Source of the DNA: Pseudidiomarina planktonica
Lineage (GTDB): Bacteria > Pseudomonadota > Gammaproteobacteria > Enterobacterales > Alteromonadaceae
Length of the DNA stretch: 64,000 nt
Reading direction: 5' to 3'
NCBI RefSeq assembly: GCF_900177775.1
Contig: NZ_FXWH01000001.1
Location: 1,302,001 to 1,366,000, forward strand
Below the pieces are notes generated by a model. The model had not been told where the DNA came from, did not search any database, and saw only the letters and a program-made list of their open reading frames with translations. Made by a program: the position numbers and the translations under genes. Shown here in pieces: positions 31,294 through 36,661 of this stretch. Each line of letters begins with the position of its first letter. Position 1 is the stretch's first letter.

Positions 31294-32085
31294 ATGTATG
31301 TCGATTCCCATTGTCATTTGGATAAAATCAAACAAGCAAAAGACGCCGCCGGCTTAAAGAAAGTTCTGGCCAATGCTGCGGCAGCCAAAGTAGAGCATAT
31401 GTTGTGCGTATGCGTAACTCTGGCTGAGTTTGAAGAAATGCAGGCGCGCGTGGCTGAATTCTCGAATATTTCAGTGTCTTGCGGTGCGCATCCACTGTAC
31501 GTAGCCGAACATGGTTACGATGCTGAGCTGCTGAGAAAGCTGGCGTCACGCCCCGAAGTTGTAGCTGTGGGGGAAACCGGGCTGGATTACTTCTACGATG
31601 CGGACAATCAACAGATTCAAAAAGAAAGCTTCGCCGGTCATGTCGATATTGCGGTAGAGCTTGATAAGCCATTGATTATTCATACCCGTGCTGCGCAGGA
31701 AGACACTCTGGCTATTTTACGTGAGGGCAAAGCGGAACGTTGTGGCGGCGTATTGCATTGCTTTACAGAAAGCTATGACATGGCAAAACAAGCCATAGAC
31801 GAACTGGACTTTTATATTTCGATTTCCGGTATTGCCAGCTTTGCCAACGCCAAAGAGCTGCGTGAAACGGTCCAAAAACTACCCTTAGAAAGAATATTGA
31901 TTGAAACCGACAGCCCGTGGTTGGCACCGGTGCCGCATCGCGGTAAAGAAAATCAGCCGGCATTTGTAGCGGATGTGGCCAAATGTGTGGCTGATGTGAA
32001 AAATATTACGCTGGCCGAGGTGGCTGAGGTTACCCGCAATAATTTCTATCAATTGTTCCGTGGGGCCTCGCCTACAGCGGTGTAG
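31294..32085 (+). CDS. TatD-family metal-dependent hydrolase (YcfH type)
   Basis: A 263-residue TatD DNase-like TIM-barrel hydrolase. It has the metal-binding start YVDSHCHLD, GETGLDYFYD with the metal Glu (about 95), PLIIHTRAAQEDT (His), GVLHCFTESY (His) and LIETDSPWLAPVPHRGK (Asp) as expected. In E. coli the homologue ycfH also follows holB. Members act on DNA 3' ends or on D-aminoacylated substrates; the exact substrate here is unknown. GTAAGG lies 11 nt before the ATG. Confidence 0.92.
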   Translation: MYVDSHCHLDKIKQAKDAAGLKKVLANAAAAKVEHMLCVCVTLAEFEEMQARVAEFSNISVSCGAHPLYVAEHGYDAELLRKLASRPEVVAVGETGLDYFYDADNQQIQKESFAGHVDIAVELDKPLIIHTRAAQEDTLAILREGKAERCGGVLHCFTESYDMAKQAIDELDFYISISGIASFANAKELRETVQKLPLERILIETDSPWLAPVPHRGKENQPAFVADVAKCVADVKNITLAEVAEVTRNNFYQLFRGASPTAV

Positions 32086-32169: not shown

Positions 32170-32198
32170 TTAGCAATTGTTCAATTTTTGACTATGCT
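32170..32198 (+). promoter_or_regulatory. Candidate promoter of the intergenic small RNA
   Basis: TTAGCA (32170-32175) and TATGCT (32193-32198) are 17 bp apart within an AT-rich stretch; each matches four of six consensus bases. Transcription would start near 32205. Confidence 0.4.
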
Positions 32199-32204
32199 TA
32201 AAAA

Positions 32205-32325
32205 TACCGCAATTAACAACGCTTAATTTTTAGGCGTTTAGCGAGATGAGTTAGCGCACGGCTCAATCCCTTTGAGCCATTCCCCTATGCTCGGGACAAT
32301 TCGGATTGGTCCCGAGCTTTTTTTT
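32205..32325 (+). ncRNA. Candidate small RNA with terminator, between tatD and gntR
   Basis: The stretch has a promoter-like pair upstream, no reading frame longer than about ten codons, and two stable stems: ggctcaa with ttgagcc (about 32260-32278), and a terminator with gctcgggac (32289-32297) and gtcccgagc (32309-32317) followed by eight T residues (32318-32325). tatD ends more than 100 nt before the proposed start, so the structure is oversized for a plain tatD terminator. It may be a trans-acting RNA of about 120 nt. I do not recognise it as a named family. The alternative is a tatD terminator alone, or an attenuator ahead of the prp genes. Confidence 0.55.
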
Positions 32326-32377
32326 GTCTTTTTATTGGTTTTTAGAGCCCAACATCAGAAATCCTGAAATTATAAGA

Positions 32378-32448
32378 TGTCGACAATATCTTGTTATTTA
32401 CCTAAGAACTAGAATCTGTTAGGCTTCTGCCATCTAGAATTGTCGACA
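32378..32448. promoter_or_regulatory. Paired TGTCGACA operators flanking the gntR-prp promoter
   Basis: The palindrome TGTCGACA occurs at 32378-32385 and again at 32441-32448 (as TTGTCGACAA), 63 bp apart, i.e. six helical turns. A -10-like TAGAAT (32410-32415) lies between them, so one site would sit near the -35 and the other near +20. FCD-type GntR regulators bind palindromes of this kind, so autoregulation by the adjacent gene is the simplest reading. It is inference from sequence and position. Confidence 0.65.
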
Positions 32449-32456
32449 AAGTGACT

Positions 32457-33134
32457 ATGTCTTTATCGTTCCATGTATTTCATACGCTTCAGCAACGCAT
32501 TGTTGAAGGGGATATACCGCCGGGTAGCAAAATCAGCGAACCGGAATTGGCGCGTGAGTTCAATGTCAGTCGTAGTTCCCTTCGTGAAGCAATCCAACGT
32601 TTAGAAGCTGGCGGCCTGGTGATTCGTACACCCAATGTAGGCGCGCGAGTTATTACGTTATCCGCTGCTAAACTGATTGAAATATATGAAATACGCGAAG
32701 CCCTGGAAGGCATGGCCTGCCGTTTGGCGGCTGAGCGTATGACAGTGCAGCAAATAGATGAACTAAAACAACTACTGGCCGATCACGCCAAAGCCGAGTC
32801 GCTACAAAGCGGACAAAGTTATTACCAAAGTGAGGGCGATGTTGATTTTCACTACCGACTGATTCACGGCAGTCAGAATCAACAACTCATCGATTGGTTG
32901 TGCGGCGAGTTGTATCAGCTAGTTCGCATGTATCGCGTGCAATTCGGCATGGCCGGGCCGCGCGCCAAAACCGCTTTTAAAGAACATAGCCAAATTGTTG
33001 ATGCTATTGCCTCAGGTGATGGTGAACTGGCCGAAATGCTGATGCGGCGTCATATCGCCGCCAGCCGTAAAAATATTCAAGTGAAATTACAATTACAGGA
33101 GCAGGAAGATGTCGCAAGTATCTCCAGGAGCTAA
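32457..33134 (+). CDS. GntR-family (FCD) regulator of the methylcitrate genes
   Basis: A 225-residue FadR-type transcription factor. The N-terminal winged helix-turn-helix (about 10-70) shows [36 protein letters not shown], here named by its ends: [15 protein letters not shown] and [16 protein letters not shown]. The C-terminal FCD domain (about 85-210) has metal-binding His residues in [21 protein letters not shown] and [11 protein letters not shown]. Its position directly before prpB matches the GntR regulators of methylcitrate genes in other gammaproteobacteria (PrpQ/PmiR type); the likely signal is a methylcitrate-cycle metabolite. I start at ATG 32457; a GTG two codons earlier is possible. 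The 3' end overlaps prpB by 26 bp. Confidence 0.88.
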
Positions 33135-33996
33135 ATTACGTCAAGCCATTGCAGCGGAAGCACCGTTGCAAGTGGTTGGTACTATTAACGCCTACACCGC
33201 CATGATGGCAGAGCGTACTGGCCATAAAGCCATTTACTTATCCGGAGCTGGGGTAGCCAATGCTTCCTTTGGGTTGCCGGATTTGGGTATGACCTCATTA
33301 AATGACGTGCTGGAAGATGTACGTCGTATTACCGCTGCGTCATCGCTGCCATTGTTGGTAGATGCTGACACTGGCTGGGGTGGGGCATTTAATATTTCAC
33401 GGACAGTGAAAGAGATGATCCGTGCCGGTGCCGCTGGTATTCACATTGAAGATCAGGTCGCACAGAAGCGTTGTGGACACCGTCCAAACAAAGAGATTGT
33501 GAGCCTGGACGAGATGGTTGACCGGGTGAAAGCCGCCGTTGATGCTAAAACCGATCCGGACTTCTTCATTATGGCGCGTACCGACGCTTTTGCTCAACAA
33601 GGTTTAGAATCCGCTATCGAACGCGCACAGGCCTGTGTTGATGCCGGTGCCGATGCTATTTTTGCCGAAGCTGTAACGGAGCTTGAACACTATCAAGCCT
33701 TTACTAAAGCACTGTCTGTACCTGTATTGGCGAATATCACTGAATTTGGACAAACGCCACTGTATAATAAGCAGGAATTAGCAGACGTTGGCGTTGAAAT
33801 GGTGCTGTATCCATTAAGTGCTTTCCGCGCTATGAACAAAGCCGCGCTCAACGTGTACGAACACATTTTAACCGACGGCGATCAAAAAGCCGTTGTCGAC
33901 AACATGCAGACTCGTTCTGAGCTGTATGACTTTCTGAACTATCACGATTTTGAAGAAAAACTGGATGCGCTATTTGCGCAAGGCAGAAATAAATAA
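33109..33996 (+). CDS. prpB: Methylisocitrate lyase
   Basis: PrpB cleaves 2-methylisocitrate to pyruvate and succinate, the last step of propionate breakdown. The 295-residue isocitrate-lyase-family protein has [12 protein letters not shown] (metal and substrate Asp residues), [17 protein letters not shown] with the catalytic Cys in KRCGH (about 124), and [13 protein letters not shown]. The start [14 protein letters not shown] is preceded by AGGAGCAGGAAG and lies inside the end of gntR, so translation is probably coupled. Confidence 0.97.
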
Positions 33997-34010
33997 GAAG
34001 GAGCCAAATC

Positions 34011-35135
34011 ATGGCAGAGAAAAAACAGGGTGGCGCAGGCCTACGTGGTCAAGTCGCAGGTAAAACCGCTTTATCAACAGTCGGTAAATCAGGCTCAGGC
34101 CTAACGTACCGTGGCTACGACATCAAAGATCTGGCCAAGAACTGTCAGTTCGAAGAAGTGGCATACCTGATTTTAAAAGGCGAATTGCCGAAGCAAAGCG
34201 AATTAGAATCTTACAAAGCTAAGCTGAAAGGCATGCGTGGCCTGCCACAAGCATTAAAAGAAGTGTTAGAACGTATTCCGGCTAACGCACATCCAATGGA
34301 TGTTATGCGTACCGGTACCTCAATGCTGGGTAATCTGGAAACGGAAGAGAGCTTCTCAGAGCAGGAAGACAAAGCCGATCGTCTGTTGGCCAGCTTGCCA
34401 AGTATCATTTGCTACTGGTACCGCTTTAGCCACGACGGCGAGCGTATTGAAACCGAAACTGATGATGATTCAGTAGGCGCGCATTTCTTAACCATGCTGC
34501 GCGGCGAAGCGCCAAATGCATTGCACGAAGAAGTGATGAATACCTCATTGATTCTGTATGCAGAGCATGAGTTTAATGCTTCAACCTTTACCGCTCGTGT
34601 ATGTGCATCAACCTTATCGGATCTGCACAGCTGTGTAACCGGTGCTATTGGTTCATTACGTGGACCATTGCACGGTGGCGCTAACGAAGCCGCGATGGAC
34701 ATGATTGCTCAGTGGTCTTCAGCTGACGAAGCTGAGAAAGCCATTATGGGTATGCTTGAGCGTAAAGATAAAATCATGGGCTTTGGTCATGCGGTATATA
34801 CCGAATCTGATCCGCGCAACGAGATTATCAAAGAATACGCGAAGAAATTGTCTGACGATGTAGGTGATGACACTTTATTCCCGGTTTCAGTACGTGTTGA
34901 TGACGTGATGAAGCGTGAAAAAGGATTGTTCCCCAACGCCGACTTCTATCATGCGTCTGCGTACCACTTTATGGGCATTCCAACTAAGTTGTTTACCCCA
35001 ATTTTCGTGATGTCACGCCTGACTGGCTGGGCTGCACACGTATTCGAACAACGTGCGGATAACCGTATTATTCGTCCGTCAGCCGATTATGTTGGTGCAG
35101 AGCCACGTAAAGTGACACCAATCGAACAGCGTTAA
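34011..35135 (+). CDS. prpC: 2-methylcitrate synthase
   Basis: PrpC condenses propionyl-CoA with oxaloacetate to 2-methylcitrate. The 374-residue citrate-synthase-family protein shows GLRGQVAGKTALSTVGKSG and LTYRGYDIKDLAKN near the N-terminus, the first catalytic His in GPLHGGANEAAM (about 222), the second in MGFGHAVYTESDPRN (about 260) and the Asp in PNADFYHASAYHFMGIP (about 311). These spacings fit methylcitrate synthases rather than TCA-cycle GltA (about 430 residues). AAGGAG precedes its ATG. Confidence 0.96.
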   Translation: MAEKKQGGAGLRGQVAGKTALSTVGKSGSGLTYRGYDIKDLAKNCQFEEVAYLILKGELPKQSELESYKAKLKGMRGLPQALKEVLERIPANAHPMDVMRTGTSMLGNLETEESFSEQEDKADRLLASLPSIICYWYRFSHDGERIETETDDDSVGAHFLTMLRGEAPNALHEEVMNTSLILYAEHEFNASTFTARVCASTLSDLHSCVTGAIGSLRGPLHGGANEAAMDMIAQWSSADEAEKAIMGMLERKDKIMGFGHAVYTESDPRNEIIKEYAKKLSDDVGDDTLFPVSVRVDDVMKREKGLFPNADFYHASAYHFMGIPTKLFTPIFVMSRLTGWAAHVFEQRADNRIIRPSADYVGAEPRKVTPIEQR

Positions 35136-35176
35136 GTTATTTAATTTAAAAAGTTGCGACAAGGAGTACGCAGAAT

Positions 35177-36661
35177 ATGAGTGCGAATTTTGATACAAAC
35201 GAACGTCCGGATTATGACAAAGTCATTCAGGACATTGCAGACTACGTTATCGACTATAAAGTAGATAGCGACGAAGCGTGGGACACCGCGCGTAACTGCT
35301 TAATGGACACCTTAGGTTGTGGCCTGTTGGCATTGCGCTTCCCAGAGTGTACCAAGCATTTAGGCCCATTGGTTGAAGGTACTGTGGTACCTAACGGCGC
35401 ACGCGTGCCTGGTACCCAGTTCCGTATGGATCCAATGAAAGCAGCTTGGGATATCGGCTGTGTTATCCGTTGGTTAGATTTCAACGATACCTGGTTAGCA
35501 GCTGAGTGGGGTCACCCGTCTGACAACCTGGGCGGCATTTTGGCTACCGCTGATTTCATCTCACAAAACCGCGTTTCCCGTGGGCTTGAGCCGCTAACCA
35601 TGAAGACCGTGTTAGAAGGCATGATTAAAGCGCACGAGATTCAAGGTGTACTGGCGCTTGAGAACAGCTTCAACCGTGTTGGTTTAGACCACGTGGTATT
35701 GGTAAAAGTGGCCTCAACTGCGGTAGTTACCTGGTTGATGGGCGGTAACCGTGAGCAGATCCTTGCTGCCGTATCGCAAGCATGGGTAGACGGCCAGTCT
35801 TTACGTACTTACCGTCACGCTCCAAACGCTGGTTCACGTAAGTCATGGGCTGCCGGTGATGCGACGTCACGTGCCGTGCGTTTAGCTGACATCAGCATGC
35901 GCGGCGAAATGGGCATTCCAGGTGCATTAACTGCACCACAGTGGGGCTTCTATGACATCTTGTTCAACAAGACCAATAAAGACCAGAAACTGAAGTCGAA
36001 AGAAGATGCACAGTTCAAATTCCAGCGTGACTACGGTAGCTACGTAATGGAAAACGTGTTGTTCAAGATTTCGTTCCCGGCTGAGTTCCACTCGCAGACT
36101 GCTTGTGAAGCAGCTGTGACCTTGCATCCGCAAGTGAAAGACCGTCTGGACGACATTGAGAAAATTGTGCTGACCACGCACGAATCAGCCATTCGTATTA
36201 TTTCGAAGAAAGGCGATTTGGCCAACCCGGCTGACCGCGATCACTGCTTACAGTATATGACCGCAGTACCGTTGGCGTTTGGTAACCTGGTAGCTGAGCA
36301 TTACGAAGACGACTTCCACCGTAGCAATCCGATCATTGATGAATTGCGCGAGAAAATGGAAGTGGTTGAAGACGAGCGTTACAGCCGTGAATATCACGAT
36401 CCTGACAAACGTTCTATTGCCAACGCTATGCAGATCTTCTTCAAAGACGGCAGCAGCACTGACCGTATTGAAGTTGAATACCCAATTGGTCACCGCCTGC
36501 GTCGCGAAGAAGGTATTCCGGTACTGGAAGACAAGTTCAAGCGTAACCTTGCAACGCGCTTCCCAATCGGTCGTACCAACAACATCTTCAGCCTGTGTAA
36601 AGATCAGAAGAAGTTGGAACAAACACCAGTTCATGAATTTATGGACATGTTTGTTATCTAA
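35177..36661 (+). CDS. prpD: 2-methylcitrate dehydratase PrpD
   Basis: PrpD dehydrates 2-methylcitrate to 2-methylaconitate or methylisocitrate precursors. The 494-residue MmgE/PrpD-family protein starts [17 protein letters not shown] and has [52 protein letters not shown] and [21 protein letters not shown], all close to enterobacterial PrpD. No acnD or prpF follows, so this organism appears to use PrpD (with an aconitase elsewhere) for the step. ACAAGGAG lies upstream of the ATG. The operon ends in a strong terminator. Confidence 0.96.

Follow-up and report, generated by a model that had tools for sequence, protein, structure and literature searches.

The segment at positions 32205 to 32325 on the forward strand of the window, the whole 64,000-nucleotide stretch of Pseudidiomarina planktonica DNA analysed here, is in all likelihood (probability about 0.93) this bacterium's copy of the known SdsR/RyeB family, and a real, conserved small RNA gene. 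The covariance model SdsR_RyeB (RF00111) scores 61.5 bits at 32221–32325 on the plus strand, where its gathering score is 38 and E over the whole window is 6.9e-9, and the match spans model positions 1–100 of 100. The original prediction that a small RNA of some 120 nt lies unannotated between tatD and the gntR–prp genes is borne out by this match, by conservation and by the stability of the predicted fold (z = −4.07). The Rfam covariance search that was proposed with it returned the full-length match above the gathering score, and the statement that the RNA could be placed in no named family was wrong. An unnamed RNA is now placed in a well-studied family. SdsR of E. coli and Salmonella is a stationary-phase regulatory RNA that represses the messages of other genes. 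In the open literature on SdsR/RyeB and on small RNAs of Idiomarina and Alteromonadales, judged by titles and the starts of abstracts among the matches listed, no description of sdsR at this locus was recognised, and no paper that brings prpD and SdsR together was found in the open literature.

The transcript would be about 121 nt long, with its 5′ end placed from the −10 element and its 3′ end from the run of T residues. The features of RF00111 present in the window are the TTAGCGCACGGCTC core, a middle hairpin, a linker, a Rho-independent terminator and a 5′ hairpin. In the minimum free energy (MFE) fold, the 5′ hairpin occupies 32218–32238 with nine pairs, including one G–U; it went unmentioned in the original prediction. 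The TTAGCGCACGG block (32251–32261), a putative pairing region, has columns that are invariant in 26 loci. It runs into the middle hairpin (32260–32278), whose seven pairs (GGCTCAA/TTGAGCC) join 32260–32266 with 32272–32278, and a single-stranded linker, ATTCCCCTAT (32279–32288), follows, the ATTCCCCT part of which is invariant in the alignments. The intrinsic terminator (32289–32325) consists of a stem at 32289–32317 and eight T residues at 32318–32325. Reading the sequence confirmed the middle 7-bp stem, the terminator with its eight T residues and the promoter-like pair at 32170–32198, all of which had been noted before.

The MFE of 32205–32327 is −40.6 kcal/mol, compared with −27.2 ± 3.3 kcal/mol for 200 shuffles, none of which folds as well. 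The TTAGCGCACGG block is unpaired in most relatives' folds; in the window, the MFE fold pairs 32255–32257 weakly with 32241–32243. The window's 5′ hairpin is unlike that of other genus members in sequence and length, as seen in the alignment and in the relatives' folds (from which L033, without a −10 by the search string, was left out), and among the folds of the genus loci a 5′ hairpin is absent from the MFE structure of some relatives (e.g., L034, L039 and L041). Open reading frames of 31 and 38 amino acids with TTG starts overlap the 3′ part of sdsR. A generic scan of 3 kb gave four terminator-like sites (3.7 expected by chance) and four promoter-like sites (4.0 expected), with the sdsR promoter not among these four. 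Consensus scans for promoters and terminators did no better than on shuffled sequence and carry no weight here as evidence. Because the consensus scan performs at chance level, the case for sdsR rests on conservation and on the Rfam models.

Within the genus, 25 of 26 genomes hold one RF00111 match each above the cut-off; the remaining genome (G016) is 86% complete. Invariant columns in the alignment of the 25 genus loci cluster in TTAGCGCACGGCTC, in GAGCCATTCCCCT, on the 3′ side of the terminator and in the −10 element. The original prediction had held that conservation in the terminator stem alone would speak against it; long invariant stretches are found outside that stem, both in the genus alignment and in a 26-locus alignment. 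The latter (A3) has 26 rows, 19 of them distinct, and joins the 25 genus loci to L024, a locus of a different family in the same order. Standard pairs fill every one of the 302 counted cells of the alignment's 16 pairs (302/302). In 6 of the 16 pairs both sides have changed; shuffles average 0.3 such pairs, and none of 500 is as high. When the pair partners are slid, at most 49% still pair. Every counted cell is paired in the middle hairpin, with both-sided changes in two of seven pairs, and likewise in the terminator stem, where four of nine pairs show them. The single row L024 accounts for five of the six double changes and L050 for one; the stems are thus mostly invariant in the genus. The compensating changes, which the original prediction proposed to look for, support both of the predicted main stems, though the events are few and five of the six come from the outgroup row. 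Across this one genus, the core, middle stem, linker, terminator and sigma-S-type −10 are fixed in SdsR; the 5′ hairpin, the downstream neighbours and probably the targets are free to vary.

Outside the genus, 147 of 295 genomes of the order match RF00111 at E up to 0.001, and 136 of 295 do so above the cut-off. In the class sample, matches were obtained in 3 of 369 genomes, all three from the window's own family. The order and class searches ran with stricter filters, and some weak matches were lost. E. coli alone matches among 14 control genomes. The outside-genus loci that were compared are the 30 best of the 147 matching genomes, two class-sample loci and L024; statements about them lean to high scorers because the best-scoring matches were the ones fetched. 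The exact core string AGCGCACGGCT is missing in three of these 33 loci (L070, L085 and L087), which the tables of neighbourhoods and promoters do not include. Speaking against a wide spread, PMC6299092 states that there are no reports of SdsR and other E. coli small RNAs from Vibrio fischeri.

The window's RNA shares with SdsR of E. coli and Salmonella the full-length covariance match, the TTAGCGCACGGCTC core, the middle hairpin, a short linker, the terminator and, by sequence, a sigma-S-type promoter, whereas its 5′ segment is longer and different. Its neighbours also differ from those in E. coli: tatD and gntR–prpBCD are found here, and yebY and pphA there. Synteny with yebY has been described for the first SdsR homologues, as cited in PMC5913331; synteny is no defining trait of SdsR.

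The sdsR promoter (32170–32198, plus strand) combines a −35-like TTAGCA (32170–32175), a 17-nt gap and the −10 element TATGCT (32193–32198; CTATGCT at 32192–32198). The stretch from TTAGCA to the −10 is gap-free in 24 of 25 genus loci and one base longer in L044. Invariant promoter bases in the genus are G32173, C32174, C32192, T32193, A32194 and T32198, and 24 of 25 loci have a −10 of the form CTAnnCT, with CTACAAT in its place in L033. In family f18, which we take to be the Enterobacteriaceae and in which RF00111 scores reach 115 bits, 14 of the 16 loci shown have CTATTCT or CTACGCT as their −10. Judged by its bases, the window's promoter would be of the sigma-S type; the E. coli sdsR promoter has been described as sigma-S dependent (PMC6610125), and rpoS is present in the window's genome (469.9 bits, above cut-off). 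A further sigma-factor-like sequence in the data (L176, G000:C5:303205-304038) reaches 148 bits with the RpoS model, short of the cut-off, and carries one in-frame TAA. A promoter element conserved between tatD and sdsR, together with the RNA's own terminator, supports the earlier proposal of a separate transcription unit.

The distance from the −10 to the core is 53–54 nt in the window. Among the 24 genus loci measured, it is 27 nt in 18 and 24–39 nt in five others, and 14 of 16 f18 loci have 41–43 nt. The 5′ segment is thus longer in the window's RNA and carries its own hairpin. Some loci of other families may exceed this length; the −10 string is matched at 65 nt in L081 and at 68 nt in L079.

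By analogy with its well-studied relatives, the RNA most likely acts as a riboregulator driven by RpoS and assisted by Hfq. RNA polymerase carrying sigma-S (RpoS) would transcribe sdsR in stationary phase or under stress, and the transcript would end at its own Rho-independent terminator. Hfq would bind the RNA, which would repress mRNAs by base-pairing via its unpaired stretches, the candidates here being TTAGCGCACGG and ATTCCCC. E. coli SdsR is described as ending at its own terminator (PMC6610125), and Salmonella SdsR as annealing to the ompD mRNA, a reaction that Hfq speeds about threefold (PMC4911921). The hfq gene is present in the window's genome (97.7 bits, above cut-off).

SdsR targets named in the sources include tolC and yhcB (PMC6610125) and yeaG (PMC10954441), and PMC12977641 was likewise a source for known targets. 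Targets were predicted as simple duplexes of the core and linker, a crude procedure whose negatives are weak. No convincing pairing with tolC was obtained in 24 of the 25 sdsR genomes (G001, in which the gene is split, was left out): the best two results, near −110 in G017 and G004, were reached by 8–9% of shuffles, and for sites near +42 that recur in six genomes 33–77% of shuffles were as good. For yhcB, convincing pairing was likewise not found in 14 of the 25 genomes, the best single results there being reached by 8 of 100 shuffles. Linker sites recur in yhcB near −45 (G013, G017 and G006), where 8 to 16 of 100 shuffles do equally well, and near −100 (G002, G008, G019, G015 and G003), where 12 to 29 of 100 do; they were judged too weak to count. 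Full-length PrkA/YeaG was not found by PF08298 in any of the 26 genomes. Each of the 26 holds a partial PF08298 match of 27–29 bits (cut-off 25) over 51–64 of 358 model positions; these matches lie in open frames of 778–823 amino acids and were taken for another AAA+ protein, not for YeaG. The yeaG pairing test was dropped because the matches are partial. Three matches to the linker complement occur in the window, sdsR itself among them, where 8.2 are expected.

Ahead of the core, a AATGCCAACTTTT segment is present in all 16 f18 loci shown and absent from the window. By our numbering from the E. coli 5′ end, G26 of SdsR probably falls within this segment. G26 is reported to matter for pairing with ompD (PMC4911921). 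Since AATGCCAACTTTT is missing in the window, the targets of SdsR have probably changed.

In E. coli, the antisense RNA RyeA covers sdsR. A comparable pair in the window, in which a RyeA-like RNA would start near 32362 on the minus strand, cover sdsR and possibly be controlled by GntR, is unlikely. Its candidate promoter (ATAACA-17-TATAAT, 32369–32397, minus strand) matches the sigma-70 consensus at 10 of 12 positions when read from 32397 to 32369, a score reached in 4% of 200 shuffles with 160 bases scanned, and it overlaps a TTGTCGACA site. Because of that overlap, the promoter may simply be part of the gntR–prp control region. An equally good antisense promoter is found in none of the 24 other genus loci (one reaches 9 of 12, the rest have 8 or none listed), and promoter-like sites over 3 kb are as numerous as chance gives. 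The SraC/RyeA model (RF00101) scores 53.8 bits on the minus strand, above its cut-off of 37, but this match covers the complement of SdsR and was not accepted as evidence for RyeA in its own right. The locus thus has in common with SraC/RyeA a minus-strand score that is expected from complementarity to SdsR, whereas the promoter for an antisense RNA is not conserved in the genus. The TTGTCGACA sites, at 32378–32386 (minus strand), 32440–32449 and 33893–33902, lie around gntR–prp, one of them inside prpB; across the genome, the string occurs less often (22 times) than the reversed string used as its control (44 times). The nearer site stands about 53 nt past the T-run of sdsR, so the distance of more than 100 bp from the operators given in the original prediction was overstated.

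The gene upstream of sdsR, tatD (31294–32085, plus strand; Pfam TatD_DNase, 267.4 bits), is its constant neighbour in the genus, lying immediately before it on the same strand in all 25 loci, and a terminator behind tatD would also stop tatD transcripts. The element could on these grounds be taken for nothing more than the terminator of tatD, or a 3′ end processed from the tatD transcript, with no independent RNA. Such a reading is highly improbable given the RF00111 match, the long invariant stretches outside the terminator and the promoter element conserved between tatD and the RNA. Outside the genus, moreover, SdsR persists in loci with the exact core in which tatD converges from the opposite side (11 of 30) or in which the window's tatD gives no match within the stretch (19 of 30). 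The convergent far-side loci are L024, L076, L078–L081, L083, L084, L086, L088 and L089. As tatD is convergent near sdsR in other families, the linkage of the two spans families and its orientation differs.

The genes downstream of sdsR are less constant. Within about 1.5 kb past the terminator, a minus-strand sodium symporter gene (of the SNF family in the window) comes first in 9 of the 25 genus loci, prpD in 8, prpC and then prpD in 1, and gntR–prpB in the window; in the remaining 6 of 25, no match to any of six window proteins was found over that distance. Longer stretches from four genomes (G006, G019, G007 and G013) have the order tatD, sdsR, prp gene or genes, symporter. The prp genes are not part of sdsR's constant setting in the genus; tatD is, and the downstream genes vary. 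Least probable of all is a cis-acting leader or attenuator of the gntR–prpBCD operon, to which the start of gntR about 126 nt after sdsR and the prp genes behind sdsR in 10 of 25 genus loci might point, since sdsR is kept before the symporter gene in nine loci and in six with no gntR, prpB, prpC, prpD or symporter match within about 1.5 kb.

At E up to 1e-30, prpD is found in 10 of the 26 genus genomes, in one copy each and behind sdsR in all ten. In the window it follows gntR–prpBC, and in G007 it follows prpC. The eight prpD-only loci have its start codon 31–46 nt past the T-run of sdsR. In one of these (L040), an in-frame ATG occurs at +7, and the start that matches relatives (MGSTFD, behind AGGAGG) is at +43. 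The constant position of prpD behind sdsR and this short distance, which would hardly accommodate a separate promoter, suggest expression by read-through. We tentatively propose, as a possibility that falls short of an even chance, that the sdsR promoter may drive prpD (2-methylcitrate dehydratase) by read-through, in a stress-controlled sdsR–prpD dicistron like sdsR–pphA of E. coli, and that the spacer in the window became, or remained, the gntR–prpBCD operator region. In the sdsR–pphA read-through unit (PMC6610125), as in the genus, a gene can follow the terminator on the same strand, and 10 of the 25 genus loci have prp genes there; the gene differs, being prpD in eight loci, prpC–prpD in one and gntR–prpBCD in the window, and read-through is here putative. 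The sdsR–prpD setting would make a simple test case for whether RpoS control of genes via read-through past a small RNA terminator recurs. The prpD-first loci are L038, L039, L040, L041, L043, L046, L048 and L049, to which L044 and the window (32451–36661) may be added. The prpC at 34011–35132 is the sole close copy in the window's genome, which holds beside it just a citrate-synthase-type match of 34%. A second prpC with 71–74% identity to the window's was missing in G001 (77% complete) among the 25 other genus genomes searched, and is found elsewhere in the genome in the other 24.
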